Assembly (NCBI GenBank): GCA_007136585.1
Contig: SLGR01000076.1
Span: 1-18,613 of the forward strand
Direction: 5' to 3'
Source: Candidatus Sumerlaeota bacterium
Lineage (GTDB): Bacteria > CG03 > SLGR01
DNA: 18,613 nt
Position 1 is the first letter of the stretch; each line of letters begins with the position of its first letter. This document shows, piece after piece, positions 1 to 18,613 of the stretch. The notes under the pieces were generated by a model. The model ran no database searches, had not been told where the DNA came from, and saw only the letters and a list, made by a program, of their open reading frames with translations. A program made the position numbers and the translations under genes.

Positions 1-3000
1 CGCTTAATGTTCTTAACTGGAGTTACAGTATCCCGGGCGGGGATTCGGTATGGACAAGCGGAGAAAGATACAGGGTAAGGAGCCGGGCCGTTGATACCTG
101 TGATTACTTTCCCAATATGCAGGAAGAACCGGATGTAAAATACTTTGTTTTTGACAATATTCCGCCCAGGGCGACCGTAACGCTGCCGGTTCACGGCCTG
201 GGGTACGATGCCGAATACGTTGAAGACGCGCTCTTCCAGGGGACCGCCACCGACGCCCACAGCGGGGATTATCCCGCCGGGGTGGATTACGTTCAGATAG
301 CCCTTCAGAAGGTTGACGGGGTGGATAACTTCTGGTGGGACGGGGGTGAAACCCCGGAGAGTTTCAACCAGGCGACCAGAGTCTGGCACGGTGACGACGG
401 GGCGGAGTTCTTCGGAGGGTCCTCCTGGTCCGTGGGCCCGGACCGGCTCCCTGAATCCCTGTGGACCTCGGGGATGGAGTACCGGCTTGTGGTAAGGGCG
501 GTTGACCGCGTCCCGGATACCCCGAATATTGAGAGTTCTCTTGAACAGGGAAGGAATGATATAACTTTCTTTATTGATTTTGAGCCGCCCGAAACCTTCA
601 TAACCCGCCCGGAGGACGGGGGGTCCTACAACGCTACAACCAACAGGCTGGATATCCTGCACGGCACGAGTTCAGATGACGCCTCGGGGGTTGCCGGGAC
701 CGAGATCAGCATACAGAACGTTACTCCGGGCTCAGGTTTCCAGTACTGGCACGGTCCCGGAACGGGATGGGAAACAGGAGAAGAGTGGCTCCCGGCGGAA
801 GTGACACCAGTCTCTGAACCCGACGAATACCTCTGGGAGTACGTTGATGTTCCGGATCCGTGGCCGAGCGGGCAGGATTTCAGGGTGCGGTTCCGCTCGG
901 TTGATAACACGGGAAACTGGGAGACAGCCGGAGAAACCAACGAGGTCGTTTTTACTGTTGATACCCTTCCCCCGGAAAGTTTTGTGGAGCATCCGGAAGA
1001 CGGAGATAGCGTAAGGGAGCTCACGGAGATATCGGGTACGGTGACAGATGACTCCTCGGGTGTGAACCCGGACGAGGTTTATATAAGGATAGCGGATATA
1101 ACGGCTACTGAGAATATCCAATACTTTGACGGTCTCGCCTGGGCGGAGTCCCCGGATAACTGGCGCAGGGTAACAGTATCAACCCCCAACTGGCATTATA
1201 CTGTAAATGATGATATATGGGAAAGCGGTCACCTTTACACAATTACACCGAGGGCCGAGGATTTCGCTCAGAACATAGAGACCGAGTTTTCCACGGCCGC
1301 TTTCAGCTATGATAATGAGGCCCCGGAATCTTCAGTTCTTATTCCCGAGGAGGGTGTGTATTACCGTGAAACGGTTCTTACAACCCTTTCGGGTGAGAGC
1401 CGCGACCTTCCGGATGAGGAGGGGCTCTTTAACGCCGGAGTGAAACAGGTTATGATAAGGCTTTATGATGCCGGCGAAGAGGTCTACTGGGGGGGAGACG
1501 AATGGGACGGCTCCCCCGAAAGCTGGATACCCGTATCAGGAACATCGTCCTGGAGTAAATCCTTCTCGCCCGGGAACTGGTCATCCGGGCACGAGTACCG
1601 TCTTAACGTAAGGGGCGAGGATAACGTCGGAAACCTTGAGGTAAATTACTCCACCAGGACCTTTTATATTGATTCAGAACCCCCCGTCTCCTCAATAAGT
1701 TTTCCCGGAAACAACCTTTACTATAACAGTATACCGGTCCTTCAGGGGTCGACTCACGACGAACCTTCGGAGCTTCACAGTTCCGGCGTCAGGGAGGTTG
1801 AGCTCCTTATAATAGACCGCACCGATACCAATAACCTTCTCTACTGGGATGATGAAGTGTGGAGCTCAACTAAGACCTGGATAACAGTTTCGCCTACAGG
1901 CGGCGGATGGGAGTATTATATCACCGACCAGGATATTATGTGGGAGAATAACCGCGATTACCGTCTCCGCACGAGGGCGGTTGACGAGGCCGGAAATACC
2001 GAGACCCCCGCAACGGGGCATTACTTCTCATTTGACGATCAGGATCCCGGCTCGTATGTAACCGTCCCCGAGGACGGATCATTTGAGAGCCCGCCTTTCA
2101 GCGTAATCCAGGGAACCTGCTCGGATAATAAATCCGGGGTGGAGGAGATCAGGGTCGCCATACAGAGGGAATCAGATGGCTGGTTCTACTCCGCGGCGGC
2201 GCAGGACTTTCTTCCCGAGCTTGACTGGGATGATACGCCTAATATCATCAATAACCCGCCGGCGACCTGGAGTTTCGGCGTCTCCACGGAACCCTGGGCT
2301 CACGGAGAGAGATACTTAATAGAGTCAAGGGCTTACGACCGGGCGGGAAACATAGAAGAATCCCAGCCTACTTCTGTCTTTACATACGATAAAATACCGC
2401 CGGAGTCGCAGGTTATATATGTTTCTACGGCCGGACACCAGGTTACGGGAACCGGAAGCTATACCGGGTACACTAATATAATTCCTACAATAATAGGTAC
2501 AGCTTATGACGATGACCCGGGGCAGGTTGAGAAAGTTGAGGTGACCCTGAGAAGAGGAAACAGGTACTGGGACGGAGAGAACTGGGTGCTTACGGAAGAT
2601 CCGATCTGGGTGAGTTCCTTTCCTGAAGAATCCGCGTGGGAGGTCTGGAAGGCGACCGCCGCAAACTGGATAGGAGAGAGGTGGTACCAGGTCCGCTCAA
2701 GGGCGCGTGACAGGGCGGGTAATCAGGAGTACGAGGCGAATATATCTACAGTAAACGTTATGTATGACCCCGTTCCTCCGGAATCATCCGTTCTTTTTCC
2801 AGGGCAGGGAGAGTTCAGGCGGACCGTTCCGGAGATGTCAGGTGAGGCCTCTGACGCGGCTTCCGGTGTCTCAAGGGTAAGGGTCCTTATAAAAGACGAG
2901 ACAGCGGATCCCCCCCAGTGGTGGCACGACGAAGAGGGGTGGATAACAACGGAACCCCCGCTGGGCGAATGGCCCTGGGCCTCCCTGAGCGAGCCTGAGT

Positions 3001-6000
3001 GGACCCTTGATATTATAGATGACGCGGAGTTTTACAACCCCGCAGCCGGGTTTGATAAGAGCGGCCATGAGTTTTCCGTAAGGGTAAGCGCCGAGGACTG
3101 GGCCACTAACCGAAAAGAAGCCGAGCCTGTAAGCTTTTTTTACGACCGCGCTCCTCCCAAATCGGAGGTTACTTATCCTTCGGAGCCGTATTATAATGAA
3201 CTTGATGTGATTGAGGGGACGGCCCGCGACCTTCCCGAGTCCCCGCTCTTTAATTCCGGGGTAGCCCTGGTGGAGATTATGATTGTTGATACAGTCGCAG
3301 ACGAGTACTGGGACGGTTCCGGGTGGGCTGAGATAAACGGGGAAGCGGAATTCATACCTGTAAGCGAAGGGACCGATACCTGGCGCTATAACGCCGCCCA
3401 GGAGGGGATAGAATGGCAGCAGGGACACGAGTACGAGATAACCCCGCGGGCGACGGACCTTGCCGGAAATGTTGAACCTGGTAAATCCGGGAAGGCGGTC
3501 TTTATCTTTGACGCGCAGGAGCCCTCATCGGCAATAACCGCGCCCCAGCACCGCCAGTGGCTTAACGAGATTGACCTTATTTCAGGAACAGCCTCAAGGT
3601 CCGAGCAGCCCTCTGCCCCGGTAACCGCTGTTGAGATACAGATTGAGGATGACAGCGTTACCCCCAGCCTATACTGGTCCGGGGAAGGATGGACCGAAGA
3701 TCAGCAGCAGTGGGTTGATGCCGAGTATACCGGTCCCGGGTGGAGTTACGCCCTGGTCTCCACGGATACCTGGAAGGACGGTCGCCGGTACTTCATAAGG
3801 TCAAGGGCATACGATTCAGCCGGAAACGTGGAGGATAAAGAGGTCCACGAGGGGCACAGGTTCAGGTATGATATAACATCGCCGAGTTCTACCGTAACCG
3901 CTCCTGAGGACGGGGAGTATCTTAACGAGCTTACCCTTATTGAGGGTGCTGCCGAAGATGATTACAGCGGAATTGCCGGGGTGGAAATTCGCGTTACCAG
4001 TGACCCGGGTTCGGATGACGAGGAGTTCTGGGACGGGGGGGAGTGGGACGAGTTCTCAAGGTGGGTCCCCGCCGGGATAGAAGAGGTTGGCGAACTTTCC
4101 CAAACCTGGCAGTACACCTCGCTTACATCCACTTCGCTCATAAGCGGGATGAGGTACCGTATCCAGTCCCGGGCATCCGACCGGGCCGATAATTTGGAGG
4201 ATATAGATGAAGGTATAGAGTTTATCGCGGATTTTGAGCCTCCGGTTACGGAGATAACCTGGCCGAAAGACGGGGAGATATACTCGCAGCATATATCAAG
4301 TTTTTCCGGGACAGCAGTTGACGAGCACAGTTTTGTGACAAAAGTCCAACTCTCCCTGAGACGCCTTGACTCGGGCGTGTATTACGACGGGACCTGGGAC
4401 AGCTATGAGAGATACTGGTTTAATCTCTCCACGGGAACCCTTCCCGTATGGACTTTTGAGAGGCCCTCGCTTACCCATAACGTTGATTATAAGATAGTCG
4501 CAAGGAGTTACGATGCTGCCGATAATATGGATATAACATACTCAACGGTAACCTTTACCTATGACTCAGAGGGTCCCGTTACCTCAATTACCTATCCCGG
4601 AGAGGGGGATCTCTTAAACCAGGTCCCCTATATAGAGGGGACGGCCGTGGATGAACCGGCGGGGGTTGAGAGGGTATTCTTCTATATACACGATACCACC
4701 AACGGGCGGTACTGGGACGGATCGGAGTTTGAGGAGTCCCAGGAACCTGTATGGCTTACGAGGTCTTCCGGGGCCATACAGGACGGGGAATGGAGGTACG
4801 AGACAATAACCCACCAACACTGGCTGGATAACGGTGACGCGGTCTATAAGATAAGGGCATACGGCATAGATACGGTCGGAAACGAAGGGGTGTTGACCTC
4901 TACAAGGACCTTTACATTTGACGCCACGCCACCCGAGTCGCAGGTGCTTGTGCCGGAGGACGGGGACCGGATAAATACCTGGGACGATATAAGCGGTGAG
5001 TCGGAAGACGAGACGGCGGGCGTGGACGAAGTCTTCCTGAGGATAAGGAGGGTCCCTGACGGTTATACCTGGGCCGGGTCCTCTTTTACCGCCCAGGATA
5101 GCTGGGTCCCCGCTTCCGGTACAAGCGAGTGGTCGTATACGGGTCTTCCCTCCGCCGCCCTTACCTCCGATACGGAGTATGAGATAAACGCCCGGGCTGT
5201 GGATAATGTGCCTAACTGGGAAGTTGAGTTTTCAACTATCAGTTTTATCTGGGATATTACCGGCCCCGAGGTTATTATAACCCGCCCCGAAGCCGGGGCC
5301 AACCTCTACTCCCCCGGACAGATAGAAGGGTCGGCCTCGGATATTTCGGGAGAAGTTGAGAGCATTGAACTCAGGATACAGCGGACCCGTGACGGCAGGT
5401 TCTGGGACGGCGGGGAGTGGGTGGTCTCCGAACCCGGGGCCGCCCCCTGGACCGATACGGGGAATACGGTCTGGTATTTTGAAGAAGGGGAGTGGGGGTG
5501 GGAACCCGATAACCGGTACACCGTCTGGGCGAGGGGTTACGACGATATAGGAAACCTTACCCCTCAACCCTACAGCGAGGTATCCTTCAGGGTGGACCAG
5601 GAGGCCCCGGAAAGCGCGATAACCAAACCCCTGCACGGGGATGTGTATCATTCCCTGGACGAGGTGACCGGAACCTCCTCGGACCCGGGGGATTACCCGT
5701 CGGGGGTTGACAGGGTAATGGTGCAGGTTATGTGGGAGGGACAGTACCTCCAGCCTGACAAGATCTCCTGGGGAGGGAGCGTATCGTCTTTTACCGTTAC
5801 GGGGAGCCCCTGGAGTATGGAGCTTTCCACGGAGGCCTGGATTGACGGGGAGACCTACCATATAATTACAAGGGCCTATGACCGGGCCGGTAATGTTGAA
5901 GAGGAGGGGGCCCCCGGAGACTCCAACCACCACGAGTTCAGTATTGACAGGCTAGCCCCCGAATCTGAGATACTGATACCTGTTCACAAGGTGAATAATT

Positions 6001-9000
6001 ACGATAACCTGAGCGAGCTTCCCAGGATAGAGGGTACGGCCTCCAATGACTTCGGGGTAAGCGAAGTTGAGATTTCAGTAAACAAGGAGCTCGGAAACCG
6101 GTTCTGGGACGGAAGCGAGTGGGTGATAGGAGAAAGATGGATTACCGCTCATATATCGGCCCCCGGAGCGGCTGAAGTTGAGTGGTGGTATGAAGGGGTT
6201 GATTTTGATACCACCTGTAACTACTACATAAGGAGCAGGGCTTACGATACGGCCATACCCAGGAACCGAGAGGATACCGGGGATCTGGGTTCCGCCAACC
6301 ATCATATGGTGACCATAGATATGCGCGAGCCGGTTTCGGAAATAGAAGGCCCTGAGTACGGGGTTACTCTCGGGGAAGTTACAATGAGCCAGATTCACGG
6401 TTCGGCAAGCGACGATTACAGTGATATTACTACGGTTATGGTCCGTATTTCCGATATAACCGAATCTACTACATACTACTGGGCCCTTGAGGAATGGGAT
6501 ACAAGTCCCGTAAACTGGAACCCCGCCAATATGCTTACGCACGGCCAGGAAATAGAATGGAACGCCCAGGGGCTGGCCCCCGGAGACGGAAGCGGTATAT
6601 GGGAGTCGGGTCACACGTACCTTGTGGAGACTTACGCGATGGACTCGGCCACCCCTTCCAATATAGAATCAGAGTACGCGACGACGGTATTTACATATGA
6701 CGATGAGCCTCCTGTTTCCACTGTAACCTTCCCTGAGGACGGCGAGCATTACAGGGCCGGCCAGATAGGGCAGACCATACACGGAACAGCGGAAGACGAG
6801 GTAAGCCTTGTACAGGAGGTTTTCCTCAGTATATACGAGACCGGCACGGGAAAATGGGCAACCGCGGCGGGGTTTGAAGATACCGGGGAACCCGTATGGC
6901 TTGATACCGGTCTTACCCCCGGGACCACACAGTGGAGTTACACGAACGTAAACCTTGCCTGGACCGATAACGAGGTTTACGAGTTCAGGACCTACGCGGT
7001 TGATAATATAGGTAATATTGCGGATCCCTCGGAGCCGGTAACGGTTATCTATGACGAGACAGAGCCGGAATCTTCGGTTACAAGGCCGCTTGACGGGGCT
7101 ATCTGGGACCGGGACCAGCTCTCAACCCTTACCGGGGATGCGTGGGATACGGAGCCGGGTCTTGTGTATAAGGTTGAGATATCCATACGCGTTGATGATT
7201 ACCCCGAGGAAGGGACCAATTATTTCTGGAACGGTTCCACCTGGGTCGCCGGCGGGGAGATATGGCGCCAGGTGAACTTTCCCTCCGGATCGCAGTCAGG
7301 AGAATGGTGGCACTCCTTCCCCTCCGAAATGTGGGTTACGGGAAGGGAGTACAGGCTCCGGGTCCGCGCCACGGATATTGCCGGTAATATCCAGTCCGAA
7401 CCGGCGGTATCGCGTTTCAGCGTTGTCCTTGAGGCGGAGAGTTTCAGGGTAACAGGTATAAACGACCCGGTAACCGCCGGGACCTGGCAGCACGTTACCA
7501 TAGAGGCCCTTGACAGGGAGGGAAATACCGCCCTGACTTACGGCGGGACGGTAAGGTTCAGAACAAAGGATCCTGATAATATCGCGGGAAGACCCCAGTC
7601 GCAGTGGGCCGAGGCGGACCTGGGGGTATCCACTTACACTTTCATACCGGAATCTGATCAGGGTATTGTTCATATAAACAACCTGGTAAGGTACCGGACG
7701 GCTTCGGTGGATTCGGGTAGCAGGAAATTCCTGCTTGTTTACGATACCTCAACCCCGACTCTCTTTGGAGAACAGGCGGGTATTGATGTAGACCCGGCCG
7801 CGGCGCAGCGAATTCAGGTTATTCTTCCCGGGGAAACCGCTCTTCCCGGTACAACTGCCGGAAAATCAGGGGAACCTTCTTCTCAGACAGCCGGGGCGGG
7901 GTTTAACGCCAGGGTTAATATATGCGACGAGTACTGGAACGTTGTCCCCGACGTTTCCGATACCGTAACCGTGACCACGACCGATCCTAATGACGATGAT
8001 CCGGGAGCGGTTGAGGTTACTGGAAGCAAGGAAGTTTTTATACGGATGATAACCGGAGGGAGTCACCACGTTGAGGCTGCGTCTCAGATTTATACCGACT
8101 TTGATTCTTCTCATTCCCGGAATAACCCGGTTGAGATAAATGCGGATACGCCTACGAGGCTCCAGCTTGTTCTTCCGGGCGAGGAACCCGCTCCGGGAAC
8201 CTCCTCCGGTATCACCGGAGAACCGGCCCCCCAGCCCGCCGGGACGGAGTTTACCGCGGATATATACGCGACCGACTCAAACTGGAACGTCAATACCTCC
8301 ACAACGGTCTGGGCGGAGTTTTCCATTACCGACCCCTACGGGGTGGTTCCCTCAAGTATGGCGCTGACCCAGGGGCACGGGCAGGCAAATTTTACGATGT
8401 ACCAGGCCAGGGTCCAGACAATAACGGTCGTAAACGCCGACGGCGAGCTTACTACTGCAAGATCACCCGTTACCGTAACCCCAGGAGAGGGGCGTAGACT
8501 GCAGGTGATACTGCCCGGAGAAACCTCTCTCCCCGGTTCTCCGCCTCATATGGGCAAGGAGGGTGAGCCTTCCGCGCGCGTTGCAGGCGAGGTTTTTCAG
8601 GCTGAAGTTAACCTTACGGATGATAGGTGGAACGTTATCCCCGGAACTTCCGTATACGTATCTGTTTTTACTGACGATCCTCACGGTTCCCCGCATGAGG
8701 ATTCCCCTTCGGAGAGGTATGTTACCGGTACGAGAGATTACAGTATAACTCTAAAGACCGCCTGGGAGGAGTCTGAAGAGGCCTCGTGGACCGTTACGGC
8801 TTCGGCGGATGGATGGGACCCGTACACCTCCTCTCCGGTAGAGGTTGACCCGGCGGAAGCCGAAAAACTCCAGGTGCTTCTTCCGTGGGAAACCGCTCTT
8901 CCGGGTTCCGGTACCGGAAAGACCGGTGAGGGCGGGTCTGTCACCGCCGGAGAGAGTTTTAACGTTACAGTTAACGCGGTTGACGAGTTCTGGAATATCC

Positions 9001-12000
9001 AGACCTCGGCGAACCCCGCCGTTACGGTCTCTGCGGACGATATATACTACGAGTCCCAGGGGGAGAGGGGCCTTATTGACGGAACAAGGGATTTCTGGGT
9101 TATACTAAAGGATGCCGAAAGGGCTCCGTGGAGGGTGAGGGCCTCAACCTCCGAAGGTATAGGCCTGCTTTCCGGAGTATCTTCGGATATACAGGTTGAC
9201 CCCGCCGCGCCTGCAAGGCTCCAGGTGCTTCTTCCCGGAGAAGATCCGGAGCCGGGCAGCGATGCCGGAAGGACGGGAGAACCGGAGAACCAGGTCGCCG
9301 GTGAGGCCTTTGATCTGACCCTGCGGGTTACTGACGAGTTCTGGAACCAGGCAGAGTCCGAGGCAAACGTAAGGGTTGAGTCAACGGATCCCAACGATAC
9401 CGAAGACGAGCTGGGGTTCTTAAACAGCGCGGTTCTAAGCCGCACTTTTAAAACAGCAAACGACTCCTGGCAGGTTAGTGTCTCTACAACAGATACTCCG
9501 GATTTTCCGTCTCATACTTCACAGGAAGTTTATGTGGAACCGGCCTCCACGAGCAGGCTTCTTGTGGTTCTTCCCGGAGAGGAACTTGCTGAAGGCTCGG
9601 ATACAGGTAAGACCGGGGCTCCCGAAAATCAGAGAGCCGGGGAACCGTTTGATATTACCGTTTACGCAACCGATGATTTCTGGAACCGCACCGCGGCTGA
9701 GCCCACCGTAGGGATAGAGACCCAGGATCCGCATGATACCGAACCTGCGGGTAAATCTCTTACCGGCGGCGCCGGGACGTTTACGGTTGATTTCCGCACG
9801 GCCCACGATACCTGGACAATAACTGCGGTCACTTCGGATTATGATAATTATACCACTCCCGAGGGTATTTTCACTCTCCCGGGGAGTCCCGTAAAACTGC
9901 AGGTGCTGGCTCCCGGAGAGTACCCTGACGGCGGTAACGTGGCGGCTGACGGGCGGGGCGGGGAACCCGATACACAGGTTGCGGGGGTCGGGTTTACTGT
10001 TGAGGTCAGGGGGGTGGATGAGTTCTGGAATATAAACCGGGCGGCTGATGCTTTGGTGGAGCTTACAAGCGATTACCCGATTGCGGATATAATTGATGAT
10101 ACGCCCCAGGAGCTTGAGGACGGAACGGCTTATTTTGACGTTACGCTATCAAGGGCCGGAGAAACGACATACCTTACCGCGGAAGATCTCCGGACCTTAC
10201 CGCTTGACGGTGAAGAACATTCCGGGATATACTGCCAGCCCGGCGAACCTTATAAGCTTATAACGGTCCTTCCGGGAGAGACCCATACCCCGGCGCAGAA
10301 CCACGATAACGACGGTAAATCCGGAGCCCCTTCCCCAAGGACCGCCGGCTCGGAATTTTCCTTTACGGTGCATTCGGTTGATTCCAATTTTAATATTACT
10401 CCGACAGAGGCTTCGGTGGAGATAACCTCAGACGACCCCAACGCGGTGCTGCCTTCAACGGGTACGCTTACCGGCGGTACAACCACTTTCAGTATGACCT
10501 TAAAAACGGCAAATGATTACCGCCAGGTAACGGCTCACGAGTATGATACGGATTACGGGCTGGGAAGCGGATACTCCACGGTCTTTGTAAACCCGTCGGA
10601 TCCTGTAAAACTCTCGGCACTGGTGGCGGGGGTAAGTTACCGTCCGGGGACCGAAACGGGTGCGGAGGGGTCGCCTTCCCCGCAGACCGCCGGGACGGGG
10701 TTTACGGTTGAGGTAAGGTCGGTTGACGAGTACTGGAACCTTGCCCCTGCCCCGGGAACCGAGATCAGTGTAATAACCGAAGACCCCAACGACGAGCATC
10801 CTGAAAACAGGGTCCTTGAGAACGGGTACTCAACTTTCACGGTTACTTTCAGGACAGCCGAATCCTGGTGGGTGGAGGCCATGGACGTATCGGAAGTTCT
10901 TACCTCCTCCCGGACAGCGCGGATAGAGGTGGAGCCGGGGGCCGCCGAGAAACTCCTGGCGGTTCTTCCCGGGGAGGCTCCTGCTCCGGGGACCCCTGAC
11001 GGTAAAAGCGGGGTTCCTCTGATACAGGTAGCCGGAGAGGAATTTGAAGTGGATGTATACGCGGTTGACGCAAATTGGAATATTAACCCGGCTTACGATC
11101 CTGTAGTAAGAGTTGAGACGGAGGACCCGTACGCTACCGAACCGGAAGAGGCATCTCTGCCCGGCGGCTCGGCGAGTTTTGAGGTTACCTTAAAGAGGGC
11201 CATCCCCTGCCGGATAACTGTTTCCGATACCGAAACAGGGCTCAGTTCCTACATTACCGAACCGGTAGAGGTGGAGGCAAATACCGCAACCGGGCTTATA
11301 CTCCTTGTACCCGGTGTTGAGCACGAACCGGGTGAATACGAGGGGTCCCCGGTTTCGGAGTTCCCTTACGGAAGGTACGGGACGCCCGATGAGCAGACCG
11401 CCGGTATAGCGTTTAACGTGGAAGTTATGGCGGTTGATGACTGGTGGAACAGGAATTATGATGCCGATAACATAGTCCGGATATGGAGCTCCGACCCCAA
11501 CGCGGACGGCCCGCTTTTTAATCCGGAGCCCGCTTCACTTATAAACGGAAGATACGTATTCGGACCCGGCGGGGACGGGATCACCCTTGTTACAAAATCA
11601 GATGCCGGCTGGAGGGTTTACGTATCAACGAACGAGGCCGGTGATAACCTCAGGGGAGATCTCTCGCAGCCGGTTCCGGTCAAGGCCGGCCTTCCCGACA
11701 GGCTCCAGGCCCTCATACATCCTTACCAGGAGAACGTCCCGGGTATAGGAAAGGAAGGTGAGGTTCCCGCAATGACCGCCGGGGAGAGTTTTACCGTAAG
11801 GGTTCATCTTACAGACTCAGCCTGGAATATAGTTACCGGCGCGGATATAGATCCCAACCCGCTTATAAGGGTATACCCTGAGGATGAGTATGCCAGGATA
11901 CCGACCGCCCGGACGCTGAGAAGCGACGGGTACAGGGATTTCCCCGTAACGCTTGTAACCGCCTCAACCTGGACCGTAAGCGCCGTGGATACCGATCCGG

Positions 12001-15000
12001 GGGCCTATGAGCCCTCTACCTCTTCAGTGATCCAGGTAACCCCCGCGGCGCCCGAACGCATACAGGTTCTTCTTCCCGGAGAGGAACCTCTTCCCGGTAA
12101 CGCCAACGAAGAAGAGGTTCGCGGCGGAGAGTCTCCTTACGGGAAAAAATCGGATTCCCCGCCCGAGGATCAGGTTGCCGGTGAGGGGTTTAGCGCTATC
12201 GTTAATATAACAGACAGGTTCTGGAACGTTACCGCGGCCGGGGATACCGTAACGGTTACAACAAGCGATCTTTACGACAGTGACCCGGGAGAAGTATTTG
12301 TGGATGGCGGTTCCGTATCCGTGCCGCTTGAGCTTTATACGGCCGGTCCGGCAACCGTGACGGGGGGACACCTTGACCTGGCTGATTACGTATCCGCCGA
12401 GGTTAATATAGACTCCAATATACCAAGGCGGCTCAGAGTCCTTGTTCCGGGCGTTACCCCGGATCCCGGAAATACCGATTCGGAGGGGCGGGCCGGCGCG
12501 CCCGAGACCCAGACAGCCGGGGTTCCTTTTACAGTTACTGTTGAGGCTACGGATAACTGGTGGAACCTTAACCCCGGGGCCGAACCCCTTGTCAGGATGA
12601 GAGTCTCGGATGAGTACGGATTGGTTGAGGGCCAGGAGGGGTTTAACCAGGGGTATGAGAAACAGCTTTCAGACGGAACCGCGGATTTTGAAGTTACGCT
12701 TCTTACCGCGTTTACCGAAGGTCACGTAATTACGGTTGAGGATCTGGCGGAGGCGGGTGAACTTGATGGAGACTCCTCCCAGCCTGTCCCCGTTCAGGTA
12801 GGGGCTCCTTCCCGGCTTCAGGTCCTTCCTCCCGGAGTGGATGGTCTTCCCGGTTCGGAAACAGGAAGAACAGGGGAACCGGAGTCTCTGGTCGCCGGGG
12901 AGGTTTTCTGGGCCAGGATAAATGTTACTGACAGTCACTGGAACGTTGTGACAACTACAAACCCGGTGGTGCGCCTTTCAAATAATGACCCGTATGCGGG
13001 GCTCTACGGTTTCGGAGCGGTTGAACAGAGCCTTGAAAACGGTACCGCGGAGTTTCCCGTAACCCTGGTAACGGCCAGGGATGGAGAGACAAGGCTTACC
13101 GTATCCGATCCCTCACCTGTCCCCGCTTACTCTTCAAACCACTCGGAGTACCTTAATGTGGAGGCAAACGAGCCTACCCGTCTGAGAATTCTTGTTCCCG
13201 GGACGGAGGCTGATATGACCAGTGTAGAGACAGGGTATTCGGGGACTCCGGATCTACAGGTGGCCGGGGAACCTTTCATAGCCACGCTTCAGTCCTGTGA
13301 CGACTGGTGGAACGTTGCCGATTCAAATGCTATGGTTCATGTTTCCGCGGAGGACCCCCACGCCGTTGAGGTCTCCACAAGCCCGCTTCACGACGGCGGA
13401 GAACGATCTGTTGATATTGAACTTAGGACAGCCAGGAACGCCACGACATACCCCTCGGGAGGCTGGAAACTTACACTGAAAGACGCATCGCCGGAACCTG
13501 TCCTTGAAGAATATCAATCCCCGGAGATACAGGTTTTTCCGAGCCACCTTGCCGGGCTCCAGGTGGTATTACCCGGCCAGTCTCCCGTACCCGGCTCGGA
13601 GACCGGCATATCCGGTACTCCGGATGTGCAGAGTGTTATGAGTTCATTTGACCTGGAGGTCCGTGCTGTTGACGGGTATTTCAATCTTGTTTCAACTACT
13701 GCCCTTGTTACAGTAACAAGTAACGACCCGCAGGCCTCTCATCCCGTTCCGAGAAACCTTACCGCGGGAAGAAGGAATTTTTCCGTTCGTCTGCGCACGG
13801 TTCTGGAGAATAATTATATCTTTGCCGATTCCTATACTATACCTGTAGCAACCTCGACCGCCCTTCCCCTTGACCCGGGACCCTGTGATTATCTCGATGT
13901 GGCCGGCATCCAGGATTCAACCGCCGGGACCGAGAGAAACGTGACAGTTACGGCAAGGGATGAATTCGGAAATATAGCTGATGGCGGCTCGGAACCTGAG
14001 AACGCATACCAGGGCACGGTAACTTTCTCGGCCGATACCGATCCCGAGTGGCTGGGCAGTCCCGAAGTTCCGGGATCGGGCCTTCCCGTGGATTATACCT
14101 TCACCCCGGAAGACGGCGGGGTTGTGACAAACCCGGAAGGCTCAGGGGTCAGCCTGAGAAGAGCGGGTGAGAGGACTGTCCGGGTAGAAGATATATATTA
14201 CCACGTAAACGGAATTTACGGAGAACAGACCGGGATAACAGTTACCCCCGGCCCGGTTGATACTTTCACGGTATTTCCCCGGACTGAAGTTAATATCCCT
14301 GCGGGGGAATCAATAGAGATAAGCGCCTACTCAAGCGACAGGTATATGAACCCGACTAATATCGGCGCGGCGAACCTTGAGGTGATCATATCTACTTCCA
14401 GCGGAACTTTTACCGAAGAGCTTCGCAGCGGGGAAACCAACCAGGGCGGAATAGTAACCCCGGGAGTTACCGTTACTGATTCCTCCGGGACGATAAGCGG
14501 GGTTAATTATGTAGTCTCTGAGTATGCCGGGGACGATACAATTATAGAGATAAGGGCATCCACCGCCGGGGTATCGGGGGAATCTGGATGGATAAATACC
14601 GTGGGAGGCTCAGCCGACTATCTTGTTTTCTATGAGAGTAATAAACATTTTACCGCGGGGCAGGATGACGGGGACGGATACCCGGATCCCGACGCCCCTT
14701 ATGTTGTCCGGAGAAAGGACCGGTTCGCAAATAACGCCGTTACCGGAAACACCATAATGAATATAGAGACAGATTCAGGATCCGAGAACTCAACCGACCC
14801 GGCTGTGAGGCCGCGGCACATCTTCCTTGATGAATCAGGGGATACTCTTACGGATTCAAATAACAGCGGGTTTCAGGATATAAGGCTCTCTGCCGGTGAG
14901 TACGAGGCGCGTTTCTATTACTACGAAGAGAAAGCCTCCTGGGACGAGATAGATTTAAGCTCCCATACGGTAAGAGTCTTTTCAATACCCGCTCTTCCGG

Positions 15001-18000
15001 GGGCAGGCGATCCGGAGCTGCCGCGGGGAGAGGACAGGATCAGTGTGAGGGTTGATCCGGCTTCCATATCCCGGATAAGGTTTGTAACTCCGCCCAGAAC
15101 TATGCGGGCCGGTGTGAGGTCTTCGGTTATGAGGGTTCATACAAGAGACCAGTTCGGTAACGAGAAACCTGTTCCGGAGGATATTGAACTGGGACTGGGG
15201 TCGGAGTCCTCCTGGTGCGGATTTGAGACAAACCTGGGAACCTTCACATACCGGGACGGTTCCTGGAGCGACCCGCCCAGGCTGCTTATCTCAAGCGGAA
15301 CTTATTTAGCGGATTTTTACTACACCGACAACGTCCGGGGAACCCCGAGGGTTGATGTTTACGGGCTTGACGATACCATCGGAGAGCCCTGGGGTTCCGC
15401 TCAGCAGACACAGACAGTGAACCCGGCTCCGATAGAGAAACTGGAATTTATTTCCGAGCCGTATTCCTCTTCAAATCCTCTTACGGCCGGAGCTACCTCG
15501 TGGATGATAAGGGTCCAGACCCAGGATCAATTCAATAACGCCTCGGAGGTTGAGAGAGACGAGAGGATAAACCTTTTTATAACAGATGCCTCTTCCGATA
15601 AGTTTGAGTTTTCCAAGTCATCTACCACCTGGGAGCCGGTTGATCACGTCCATATATCTTCGGGGACAACTACGACCCACTTCTATCTTAAGATTTTCCG
15701 GTCGGGGAACTGGGAGATGAGGGCCGAGAGAGATGAAGGCGGCTGGTCCCGGGCCAGTCAGAACGTTGAGGTGGTAGGGGGAGAGATAAGCCGTCTTGAC
15801 ATAATAACCGAGCCCAGGAGGATAGTAGCGGGTCCCGAGTACTCGGATTATCAACTCTTCGGATCTACGAATTATGTGATAACTATCCAGACCGAGGATA
15901 AATACGGAAACTACTCGGCCGTGGAGGAGACGGTCCATATTTCGCTGGGTTCGGATTCGGGGAGCGGAGATTTTTCGGATGATGCGGAAAACTGGGGTAT
16001 AAATATCATAGCCATATCCTCCGGAAGTTACAGGACATCTTTTTACTATACGGACCGGGCGGCGGGAAAGCATACCCTTTACGCATACGAACATCCTTCA
16101 CGGGGATGGGAAACGGCCGAACAGGAGATAGAGGTTTTTCCGGCTGATATCCATGATTTTGAAATTTCTCATAGGGGGGAGGCCTCGGTTTATGTTCCCG
16201 AAGAGATTACAATAAGAGCGCGCGATAACTACGGAAACTACGCTACGGGGTACCCGGACCCCTACAACCCCTACGGTTCCACCGATACCTGGAATTACTA
16301 TGTGGGAGTGGCTTCCATAACCCCCACTTCGGTCGGCCACCCGGAAGGTAAAGAGCCCCATATAAACGTTGGCAGAGTCTGGGATTTCTCCGAGTCGCTT
16401 GAAGCGGGCACCCCCGGCCGGGTAGCCGTTATGCTTACGGCCGATATAGTAACCGAGCCTCCGGATGTTCCACCCATAAGGGTAGAGGTTGTGGATACCT
16501 CCACGGATACCATACGCGGAACCTCGCCCGAGCTTACGGTAACCGGGGCCATAGTAAGGCCCTACAGGGACCCCGAGACGGGTCGCAGGGTCGCCCCTGA
16601 GAATATATATCAGGACCACAGGAACGTTCTTATGGAGCGGCTTGATATATTTACAAATTACGGCAGCGCAGAGTGGTACCAGGTAAGGATAGACCTTGAA
16701 GGGAATGTCCCCGATGAGGATGTAACCGCCGTAAGGGTCTGGAGAGACGGTGACGGAGACGCGGCATTCACACCCCCGGATTACGATGACCCGGATAACC
16801 TCCTGGGGACATCTCCGGAGGTTCTCCTTGCCTCGGGGACCTTTACAAACGGGTTTGTGATACTTGACCTCAGGGAGCTTGTGGGGCACCACCAGGTTAT
16901 AAGCGAGGTCCCGAGTCACTACTTTATAACCGTGGACATGGATTACCAGGCCGAACCGGAGAACCATATGAGCCTTTACTGGGAGAAAACCCACTTCTCG
17001 GCTTCGGGACGCTGGAGCGGCCCCCCGACGGCCCAGGTCGCCGACAATAACTTTAATATACAGACCCCGACAGTAACCGTTAAATCCACGCCCGGTGATA
17101 TAGTTATGCCCTGGTGGTGCCTGGTGGAGGAGAAGGAGACAGTTACACAGGCAGATACAAGGGTCGGGTTCATTGCTTTTGATATGTTTACCACAAAGTA
17201 CACGATTGACTGGACTGATATACATATCTCGCTTGTGGGAGACGGAATAAGGGACGAGGATATAAGAAACGTAAGGATATACCGGGACGCGACCGGCGAC
17301 AGAAATTTCACCCCGCTTGCCGATACGCTCATAACCTCGGGGCAGGATAAGTTCGGGACCCAGGTGGACGGGGTTGCTATGATAAAACTGCGGAACCCCA
17401 ATAACCTTGAGGAGCCCCGCCCCCAGACAATAACCACATCCACGCAGACCTACTTCGTCGCTCTTGATATTGACGCGGCAGCTACTATAGGGGCCAGCGT
17501 GGGGCTCCGTATAGATTCGCCCGACCGGGTCATAGCTCGGGACGATTCCGGCGAGAACAGGGTTCTCTCATTCTTTGACAGGAACCGCGACGGGGTTCAG
17601 CAGCCCGACGAGGAGGACCTCTTCCCAATAGAGACTGCGCGCCCATTAATCCAGCCCACGGAGGATACGCTGCTTCTGGCGAAGGACTCATCTCTGGGGA
17701 ATATTACGCAGGGCGACCGCAACAGGGTCTATTCCATACTTGACCTGCGCAGCGACGCGAACTCCGTAATATGGACGGGGTTAAGGGTTGATAAGACCGG
17801 GACTCTCCCCGATGAATGGATTAATGCCGTAAAGGTCTGGTACTATGTTTCGGGGTCCACCGACTCCGCCGGCCAGCCCGTGGTCAGCAGGTCTACAGAC
17901 ACTCCTACGGGAAGGGCGGATATACTTGTTTCCGAGGGAGCCGATCTCTTTGTCTCGTCAACGACCCTTATGAGCTTCCCCGAGGATAATTACCAGGATA

Positions 18001-18613
18001 TAAGAAGCCCGTTGGAGGACCCCGAGACTTACCCCAAGCGTTACCTTGTTACCATAGACCTTGACCCGTACGCTCCCGAGGATAAGACGCTGGGTATAAG
18101 GATTCCGGAGACCGATTATTTCAAGGTCTCCTGGCCCAATCAGGTCTCTGATGCCCAGTTCCCGATTTCCGTATCGGATAAGACGGTGCGTCCGTATCCT
18201 GATACGGTAACGGTTACTCCCTCGGATGTATCTCACCTTATAACCGATCCGGAGACAGGACAGCGGGACGGGCTTTTTATGCAGGGAAGGACCGATTCTC
18301 CGGCTGTGAGACTTAACTTTGAGACCGAGGTCTCATACGCGCACCTCCGGGACACGCTTGACGGAAGCCAGCCGGCTATAACCCTTTTTCAGAGGGGAAA
18401 TGCGAGGGACGAGGATATTGACAGCGTAAGTCTCTGGTGGGATGTGGAGCACGACGGCCGTCTTAACAGGGAGGTGGATATCGCAGTCTCAACGGGGAAC
18501 CGGTTCGTCGACGGGGTCTGCAGGATATGGATACCGCCGGATAAGGCCCAGAAAATCGGGGAACCGGATTCGCAGCACCGCCCGCTGCCCAAGGCGTTCT
18601 TTATAACTCTGGA
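1..18613 (+). CDS. Fragment of a giant multi-repeat Ig-like surface or secreted protein, open at both ends
   Basis: One reading frame stays open from base 3 to base 18611 (6,203 codons). Bases 1-2 finish a preceding codon and bases 18612-18613 begin the next, so the N terminus, signal peptide, start codon and C terminus lie outside. The order is zone A (20 Trp-rich repeats and one partial), a bridge module, zone B (17 LPGE/WN repeats), zone C (seven mixed Ig-like modules) and zone D (three full and one partial longer repeats with acidic loops). Every zone continues the same frame, and module periodicity runs unbroken, so this is a real gene and not chance openness. I see no membrane helix, protease, glycosidase or other catalytic domain. 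The product is acidic, rich in Trp and Tyr and nearly free of Cys, as expected of an exported calcium-stabilised fibre. The role is unknown. Adhesion or contact with other cells is an inference from architecture. A pseudogene is very unlikely given the intact frame. Confidence 0.97.
3..7430 (+). repeat. Zone A: 20 tandem Trp-rich Ig-like repeats plus one partial (protein level)
   Basis: A partial copy (3-161) is followed by 20 units that begin at the Pro-containing linker. Unit starts are 162, 585, 969, 1320, 1680, 2043, 2397, 2775, 3153, 3519, 3879, 4239, 4572, 4929, 5262, 5604, 5955, 6327, 6708 and 7062; lengths are 111-141 residues, mostly 114-126. The order of motifs in a unit is PPxSxVxxPxxG, then GTAxDxxSGV, then VxVxIxR, then YWDGxxW, then a Trp followed by a short strand, then WxxGxxYxxRxRAxDxAGN, then a strand ending FxxD. 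Good copies of YWDGxxW occur in the units at 2397, 3153, 3879, 5262 and 5955. The SGVxxVxVxI and AxDxAGN parts match a widespread bacterial Ig-like repeat style with a YWNGxxW hairpin. I do not assign a Pfam name. Copies are well diverged in DNA, so the array is old. Stacked beta domains joined by Pro linkers suggest a long rod. Confidence 0.9.
7431..7808 (+). other. Bridge Ig-like module between zones A and B
   Basis: This single module of about 126 residues has neither the YWDG hairpin of zone A nor the LPGE segment of zone B. It starts FRVTGINDPVTAGT, continues with an alternating strand into ALDREGN, then GGTVRF with DPDN, a YTF strand, and closes at 7764-7796 with FGEQAGIDVDP. The pattern VTAGT, then VTxEAxDxxGN, then GTVxF, then YTF, then GIxVxPA matches a very common bacterial Ig-like repeat style. 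The same plan returns in the first module of zone C, right after the zone B array. It is read through in frame from zone A with no linker of low complexity. Confidence 0.8.
7809..13883 (+). repeat. Zone B: 17 tandem Ig-like repeats with LPGE/GKTGE and DxxWN motifs (protein level)
   Basis: Unit starts are 7809, 8157, 8496, 8865, 9216, 9555, 9894, 10254, 10608, 10950, 11292, 11700, 12057, 12429, 12813, 13179 and 13554; lengths are 110-136 residues. Each unit opens with RLQVLLPGE, a loop xxPGSxxGKTGEP, then QxAGExFxVxVxAxDxxWN, then a strand VxVxTxDPN, then LxxGxxxFxVxLxTA, then a strand pair ending VxVxPA. This closely follows a repeat style found in many large bacterial surface proteins. Variants are visible. 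The copy at 10254 has FN in place of WN. The copy at 11700 has IHPYQE in place of LPGE. The copies at 11292 and 12057 have a longer loop with PYG(R/K). The last copy has lost both the AGxxF motif and the Trp. The FxVxLxTA and VxVxPA strands suggest an Ig-like beta sandwich, and the LPGE/GKTGE stretch is probably an inter-domain linker or exposed hairpin. Confidence 0.9.
13884..14255 (+). other. Zone C module 1: Ig-like, paralogue of the bridge module
   Basis: About 124 residues. It starts at a Cys codon (13884) with YLDVAGIQDSTAGT, then VTVTARDEFGN, GTVTF, a YTF strand, a strand around RTVRVED, and closes near 14220-14250 with GEQTGITVTP. The order and the closing GEQxGIxVxP motif are shared with the bridge module at 7431-7808. 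It carries an insertion of about ten residues after the FGN turn (GGSEPENAYQ). Confidence 0.8.
14256..14612 (+). other. Zone C module 2: Ig-like, invasin-like style
   Basis: About 119 residues, starting VDTFTVFP. The PAGESIEISAYSSD strand pair and the late pattern in which a Tyr strand leads into EYAGDDTIIEIRAS recall the invasin/Big_1 type, where a final strand carries a TAGxxTIxA pattern. The similarity is by eye only. It has no YWDG or LPGE motif. Confidence 0.55.
14613..15065 (+). other. Zone C module 3: longer Ig-like module with an acidic loop
   Basis: About 151 residues, the longest module of zone C. It begins ADYLVFYES and soon runs into the loop DDGDGYPDPD (14664-14693). Later it has LSAGEYEARFYYYEE, which matches the SGxYxxxFYYTD strand seen in modules 4 and 6, and it ends VRVDPAS. 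The extra length is mainly the acidic loop and the following charged stretch. Confidence 0.65.
14664..14693 (+). other. Thrombospondin-type-3-like acidic loop in zone C module 3
   Basis: The residues DDGDGYPDPD fit the D-x-D-G-D-G-x-x-D spacing of calcium-binding thrombospondin type 3 and related bacterial repeats. Only one copy is present here, so binding is an inference. Confidence 0.5.
15066..16148 (+). repeat. Zone C modules 4 to 6: three Ig-like repeats with an FYYTD strand
   Basis: Units start at 15066, 15432 and 15786 (122, 118 and 121 residues). Each opens with an (I)xRLxFxxxP strand, then a TAG or VAG turn, then a RVxTxDQFGN or QTEDKYGN motif, a strand ending with Gly/Ser, SSGTY or SGSY before FYYTD (FYLKI in the middle copy), and a last strand ending VNPAP, VVGGE or VFPAD. 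The DxxGN and FYYTD motifs match a common Ig-like repeat style in large bacterial surface proteins. The middle copy is the most diverged. Confidence 0.8.
16149..16547 (+). other. Zone C module 7: degenerate Ig-like module before zone D
   Basis: About 133 residues. It keeps the EITIRARDNYGN motif of the preceding modules but is followed by a Tyr/Pro-rich stretch (YPDPYNPYGS) and lacks the FYYTD strand. Its second half (VAVMLTADIV through ELTVTG) has the strand spacing of a beta sandwich but no motif I can match. It forms the junction to the longer zone D repeats. Confidence 0.55.
16746..16781 (+). other. Acidic DGDGD loop of the first zone D repeat
   Basis: Just after the VRVW strand, the residues DGDGDAAF are followed by an Asp-rich turn (PDYDDPDN). 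The equivalent place in the second repeat (17286-17324) reads DATGDRNF then LADTL. The position is conserved in three of the four repeats, which suggests a metal site, probably calcium. Confidence 0.5.
17577..17612 (+). other. EF-hand-like calcium loop at the end of the second zone D repeat
   Basis: The twelve residues are DRNRDGVQQPDE. Asp at loop position 1, Asn at 3, Asp at 5, Gly at 6 and Glu at 12 are all correct for an EF-hand or dockerin-type loop. Position 8, usually hydrophobic, is Gln, so this is an isolated loop and not a full helix-loop-helix pair. It sits between two repeats, where calcium would stiffen the linker. Confidence 0.6.
18441..18476 (+). other. Acidic DxExDG loop of the fourth, partial zone D repeat
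   Basis: After the VSLWW strand the loop reads DVEHDGRLNREV, with Asp at 1, Glu at 3, Asp at 5 and Gly at 6. It lies at the same place as the DGDGD loop of the first repeat. Position 12 is Val, not Glu, so the match to an EF-hand is partial. Confidence 0.45.

Follow-up and report, generated by a model that had tools for sequence, protein, structure and literature searches.

The middle of a gene for a probable giant modular surface protein in Candidatus Sumerlaeota, with recurrent PorV, FliG and MotAB neighbours among its relatives

The closest described counterparts of the protein considered here are SprB of Flavobacterium johnsoniae and the huge proteins of Omnitrophota and Elusimicrobiota. 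SprB, a 669-kDa cargo of the T9SS, is highly repetitive and binds the barrel SprF, whose gene lies beside its own (PMC9143113); it needs the PMF-driven GldLM motor in order to move (PMC8986121). Omnitrophota giants reach at least 39,678 aa in Velamenicoccus archaeovorus, whose protein is predicted to contain 42 TM helices; few annotated domains are found in most giants of that group (PMC10066038). In a statistical survey, huge proteins were reported as enriched in Elusimicrobiota, with no COG assignable (PMC11573180). That bacteria make giant surface proteins, and that Elusimicrobiota are enriched in them, is already known. Within the literature that we searched, neither a giant family of the kind described below nor its linkage to motor genes was found described, and nothing relevant was found on FliG or T9SS in Elusimicrobiota; what appears to be new is a family whose module zones keep a fixed order and which is repeatedly linked with PorV, membrane-anchored FliG and MotAB in genomes of a group that lacks FlhA.

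The stretch of DNA analysed (the window, 18,613 nucleotides) is the whole of contig C219 of a MAG (G000) of 1.88 Mb in 257 contigs, 88% complete. A first-pass annotation had described 6,203 open codons with modules running from end to end, and this proved correct: frame +3 contains no stop and is filled by the zones A to D described below, and the other five frames hold 94–388 stops each. At the base composition of the window about 259 stops are expected by chance, so that the probability of an open frame is about 10^-115. When the window was aligned with its relative in genome G003 (3,405 codons, 48% amino-acid identity), differences at codon positions 1, 2 and 3 were 0.40, 0.33 and 0.64, respectively, a coding signature showing that the frame is under constraint. 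A chance open frame is ruled out by the number of expected stops, this probability and the coding signature. The longest exact DNA repeat inside the window is 18–19 bp, and because none reaches 20 bp, simple repeat collapse within the window is unlikely. Minus-strand ORFs of up to 375 aa are also present, and we take them to be an antisense shadow of the coding strand.

Zones were delimited by iterated profile searches, which divided the window end to end into four module zones in the order A-B-C-D (Table 1). The incomplete units noted earlier, of zone A at the 5' end and of zone D at the 3' end, were both seen. For zone A, Pfam gives matches to Big_7 and OmpL47-type domains; zones B to D have essentially no annotation. 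The single zone-C-like module that separates zones A and B has a counterpart at the A/B boundary of an intact relative (G148). The amino-acid composition is very acidic, with 1,210 Asp and Glu against 484 Lys and Arg, and hydropathy revealed no TM-like stretch in the part of the giant that is seen in this organism.

The folds of two unannotated units were modelled with AlphaFold. The zone B unit is predicted to be a β-sandwich (pLDDT 97) that resembles the Ig domains of intimin, filamin and macroglobulin with Z of 8–9 (8.1–8.6 for intimin/invasin and filamin). The B module thus shares a fold with the Ig-like domains of intimin/invasin and filamin but has no sequence-level membership in those families, the Z scores being modest and the β-sandwich a common fold. 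A β-sandwich is also predicted for the zone D unit (pLDDT 93), for which the best match is the N-terminal domain of Bacteroides GH33 sialidases (Z 12.6, r.m.s.d. 2.7, 144 residues aligned). Diphtheria toxin (Z about 7) and cohesins also resemble the D unit, but less closely, and were set aside as common β-sandwich likeness.

Table 1. Coordinates and module content of the giant gene, its relatives and associated genes (plain intervals are window positions)
Feature	Location	Strand	Description	Basis
Giant ORF, internal part	3..18611	+	6,203 codons, without start or stop in the window; continues in C145	open-frame count
Zone A	15..7421	+	21 modules of ~120 aa, Ig-like, Big_7/OmpL47-like, motif 'YWDG..W'; first cut by contig end	profile search, Pfam matches
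Single zone-C-like module	7434..7640	+	between zones A and B	profile search
Zone B	7818..14252	+	18 modules of ~115-120 aa, motif 'LLPGE..PG...GKTGEP..QVAGE.F...A.D..WN'	profile search; β-sandwich model
Zone C	14241..16151	+	5 modules of ~120-150 aa	profile search; in register with G003, G004
Zone D	16590..18611	+	first of 8 modules, ~150-210 aa each, rest in C145	profile search; β-sandwich model
Overlap with C145	18493..18613 (= L012:1-121)	+	C145 holds the rest of zone D, Fn3/Ig-like segments, FlgD/T9SS-tail-like C-terminal domain, then downstream genes	exact match, 121 bp
PorV/PorQ-family barrel with TPRs	L012 3630-5264		next gene after the giant	128 vs cut-off 90 bits
SprA/Sov-like outer-membrane translocon	L111 10804-16071 (G000:C230)		1,756-aa ORF	TIGR04189 E 1e-53; PDB SprA 6h3i matched
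Membrane-anchored FliG	L012 5369-7471; L043 12481-14481; L055 2515-4431; L137 6146-8083; L135 5442-7580		operon with Pro-rich coiled-coil gene; MotA and MotB where the contig is long enough	genomes without FlhA
Modules, window + C145			A x21 (cut), B x18, C x5, D x8	
Modules, G013			A x43 (cut), B x18, C x6, D x9	
Modules, G148			A x88, B x33, C x5, D x10	
Modules, G149			A x80, B x32, C x4-5, D x8	

To follow the gene beyond the contig ends, as had been proposed, we looked for overlaps among contigs of the same genome, and the extension succeeded at the 3' end and failed at the 5' end. Contig C145 (L012) starts with the final 121 bp of the window, exactly and in frame, and the giant frame continues in it for ~3.2 kb past the window to a stop after C145 position 3326; the last 550 residues comprise Fn3/Ig-like segments and a 'YPNP...' domain. 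None of the organism's own contigs overlaps the 5' end, which leaves the start codon and N-terminus missing from the assembly, and none was found to extend C145 at its 3' end. The joined product of 7,272 residues is a lower bound on protein length, and both it and the window alone (6,203 residues) exceed the 5,000 aa in a single ORF by which huge proteins are defined. An independent parallel is given by G013, where a 123-bp contig overlap yields a joined product of 10,119 residues, also without a start.

Orthologues were sought by searching 145 genomes and by scanning the contigs of named genomes; they fall in MAGs labelled mainly Elusimicrobia and Endomicrobia. Two genes are intact, one of 19,358 codons in an Endomicrobia MAG (G148) and one of 17,343 codons in Elusimicrobia bacterium RIFOXYA2_FULL_47_53 (G149), and both have the zone order A-B-C-D. 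The gene of the window organism shares this order, and its protein is larger than the window shows, in line with the earlier expectation, reaching at least 7,272 residues with C145. The first-pass annotation had also suggested that the gene may belong to a class of giant ORFs of tens of thousands of residues known from Omnitrophota and Chlorobium. The size class holds, with 7,272 residues reached in the window organism, whose start is missing, and up to 19,358 in relatives; the labels of the named relatives are mainly Elusimicrobia and Endomicrobia, not Omnitrophota or Chlorobium.

Module order is conserved among these relatives. Reciprocal best hits occur at equal positions counted from the C-terminus for all eight D modules and all five C modules, both against G003 and against G004, and the zone B modules are mostly in order; such position-matched hits indicate that the array is passed on with its order intact, rather than as a repeat whose units shuffle freely. 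Close to the B boundary the zone A modules of the window line up with those of G013; farther on the two are offset by ten modules, which would predict at least 12 further A modules upstream in the window organism. A 16,989-aa ORF in G137 was rejected as an orthologue, having only two weak D-like units; this ORF (G137:C3:61349-112315, L095–L097), from an unrelated genome, has another architecture and a FlgD-like C-terminus. The genome of the window also encodes another large secreted protein of more than 2,105 aa, open at the contig end (L013 12518-18832, G000:C217), in which zone-A-like modules are followed by DUF285 repeats and carboxypeptidase-regulatory-like domains, with radical-SAM-like genes upstream.

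We examined both termini of the family for export signals, as had been suggested for the window protein. At the N-terminus, which the organism's own assembly lacks, the G148 and G149 giants have hydrophobic, signal-peptide-like segments as judged by hydropathy only, and almost no other hydrophobic segment. At the C-terminus, all eight giants examined match TIGR04183 (Por_Secre_tail, T9SS type A), with a best E of 1.5e-6. The domain of the window organism scores 19.7 bits against a curated cut-off of 23 for this model and 22.8 against a curated cut-off of 27 for FlgD_ig, and NCBIfam scans of the C-terminus up to E 1 returned the type A tail model and no type B model. The adjacent barrel matches PorV/PorQ models, with no PorP model among its matches, and the SprA-like gene elsewhere in the genome scores 182 against a TIGR04189 cut-off of 200, just under it. 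Export of the giant by a T9SS-like route is likely on these sequence matches. The SprA-like translocon of G000 is also an occurrence of such a gene outside Bacteroidetes.

The window is the middle of one gene, which probably encodes a giant, secreted, fibre-like surface adhesin exported by a T9SS-like route, with more than 50 Ig-like or β-sandwich modules in a fixed order. We infer the putative adhesin role from predicted fold and size only. The complete protein would consist of a signal peptide and N-terminal region, zones A, B, C and D, the Fn3/Ig-like segments and the C-terminal sorting-type domain. It would enter the periplasm by Sec export, after which a T9SS-like SprA/PorV route would recognise the C-terminal domain and carry the protein across the outer membrane. 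There it would be displayed as a long, acidic, flexible fibre with zone D closest to the cell, and the fibre may bind surfaces, glycans or neighbouring cells.

In the window genome the giant is followed by genes for the PorV-TPR protein, a membrane-anchored FliG and a Pro-rich coiled-coil protein. The FliG-like protein comprises a signal peptide, a periplasmic segment, one TM helix, FliG_M, FliG_C and TPRs; it matches PF14841 and PF01706 above cut-off and Thermotoga maritima FliG (1lkv) with E 2e-40, and scores 140 against a cut-off of 227 for the equivalog TIGR00207. The same order continues into MotA and MotB in G003, G004 and G145; in the window genome these genes are out of view because C145 ends within the coiled-coil gene. 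The PorV, FliG and coiled-coil genes adjoin the giant in G149, and giant, PorV and FliG are adjacent in G000, G003, G005, G145, G146, G149 and G150. The giant is not adjacent to motor genes in G008, G013, G147 and G148, and in G013 the PorV-FliG-coil-MotA-MotB cluster sits on another contig than the giant. Counts at phylum level rest on 16 genomes of the window's phylum, a small group that may be GTDB phylum CG03. FliG_C was found in 12 of these genomes, and also in most giant-carrying outgroup genomes, whereas FlhA (PF00771) was found in none of the 16, with four control genomes positive. A flagellar or T3SS export gate containing FlhA was rejected as the explanation of FliG, the gate being absent from all 16. 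A second, shorter FliG paralogue occurs in G008 (L132 12328-15295, G008:C85); MotA-like and MotB-like genes of its own come after it, and genes with gliding-type C-terminal segments lie nearby.

How the giant and these neighbours relate can be read in two ways. The giant may be a static fibre of a cell coat, of a biofilm or of cell-cell attachment, possibly in predation or symbiosis, with the nearby motor operon serving some other envelope function such as energising secretion. Attachment or coats have been proposed for Omnitrophota giant ORFs (PMC10066038), Elusimicrobiota show an enrichment in huge proteins (PMC11573180) and the motor genes do not always adjoin the giant, but the recurrence of the giant-PorV-FliG adjacency in the genomes named above argues against a purely static fibre, and we put this possibility somewhat short of an even chance.

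Alternatively, by analogy with SprB, a MotA/MotB stator could act on the membrane-anchored FliG, with force passing through the envelope via the coiled-coil protein and PorV-TPR to move the giant adhesin, as GldLM drives SprB in Flavobacterium. Such gliding would extend the explanation of the window as part of a secreted adhesin and would not replace it. It is suggested by the downstream gene order, with its MotA/MotB continuation in relatives, by the presence of FliG_C in a group without FlhA, by the retention of the channel Asp in MotB and of the acidic pair of the torque helix in FliG, and by the precedent of a repetitive T9SS cargo with an adjacent barrel gene and a PMF-driven motor (PMC9143113, PMC8986121). 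However, the basis is gene neighbourhood, and the giant lies apart from the motor genes in the four genomes listed above; two of the arginines in the torque helix of canonical FliG have been substituted in these copies; and the C-terminus is type A-like, whereas that of SprB is type B. We therefore regard motor-driven movement of the giant as possible but doubtful. The broader proposal, that in Elusimicrobia-like lineages without flagella MotA/MotB and membrane-anchored FliG form a non-flagellar motor driving a T9SS-like-exported adhesin of up to ~19,000 residues, as an SprB-like gliding machine, is unlikely.

That the window is an assembly artefact of collapsed repeats or chimerically joined modules is extremely improbable: the MAG is fragmented, the gene is repeat-rich and the contigs of nearer relatives also break inside it, but the coding signature and the lack of exact internal repeats stand against this, and the modules in register between independent assemblies, together with two intact ORFs in longer contigs, argue against misassembly, which the first-pass annotation had named as what could overturn its reading.

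With these results a long ORF that had stood alone becomes a defined family. Relatives show both of its ends, its likely export route can be put to the test, and in bacteria without the flagellar export gene it is repeatedly linked in the genome to motor parts of the flagellum type. If this link is functional, FliG and MotAB would work outside the flagellum, moving a giant adhesin, and a function would be gained for part of the large set of uncharacterised huge proteins in Elusimicrobiota.

Among described systems, SprB is alike in being giant and repetitive, in its C-terminal sorting domain, in an adjacent FadL-family barrel gene and in the proton-motor genes implicated. It differs in having a type B tail, a PorP/SprF-like neighbour and GldL/GldM, whereas the giant described here has a type A-like tail, a PorV-like neighbour and a link to MotA/MotB and FliG, and its intact relatives are nearly three times longer than SprB. 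With the Omnitrophota giants it shares size class, a predicted extracellular role and uncultured relatives; unlike the V. archaeovorus protein it has no TM-like stretch in the part seen, and unlike most of these giants, with their few annotated domains, it is modular throughout. The huge Elusimicrobiota proteins of the statistical survey are alike in broad lineage label and size class, whereas here one family has been resolved into zones, ends and gene neighbourhood.
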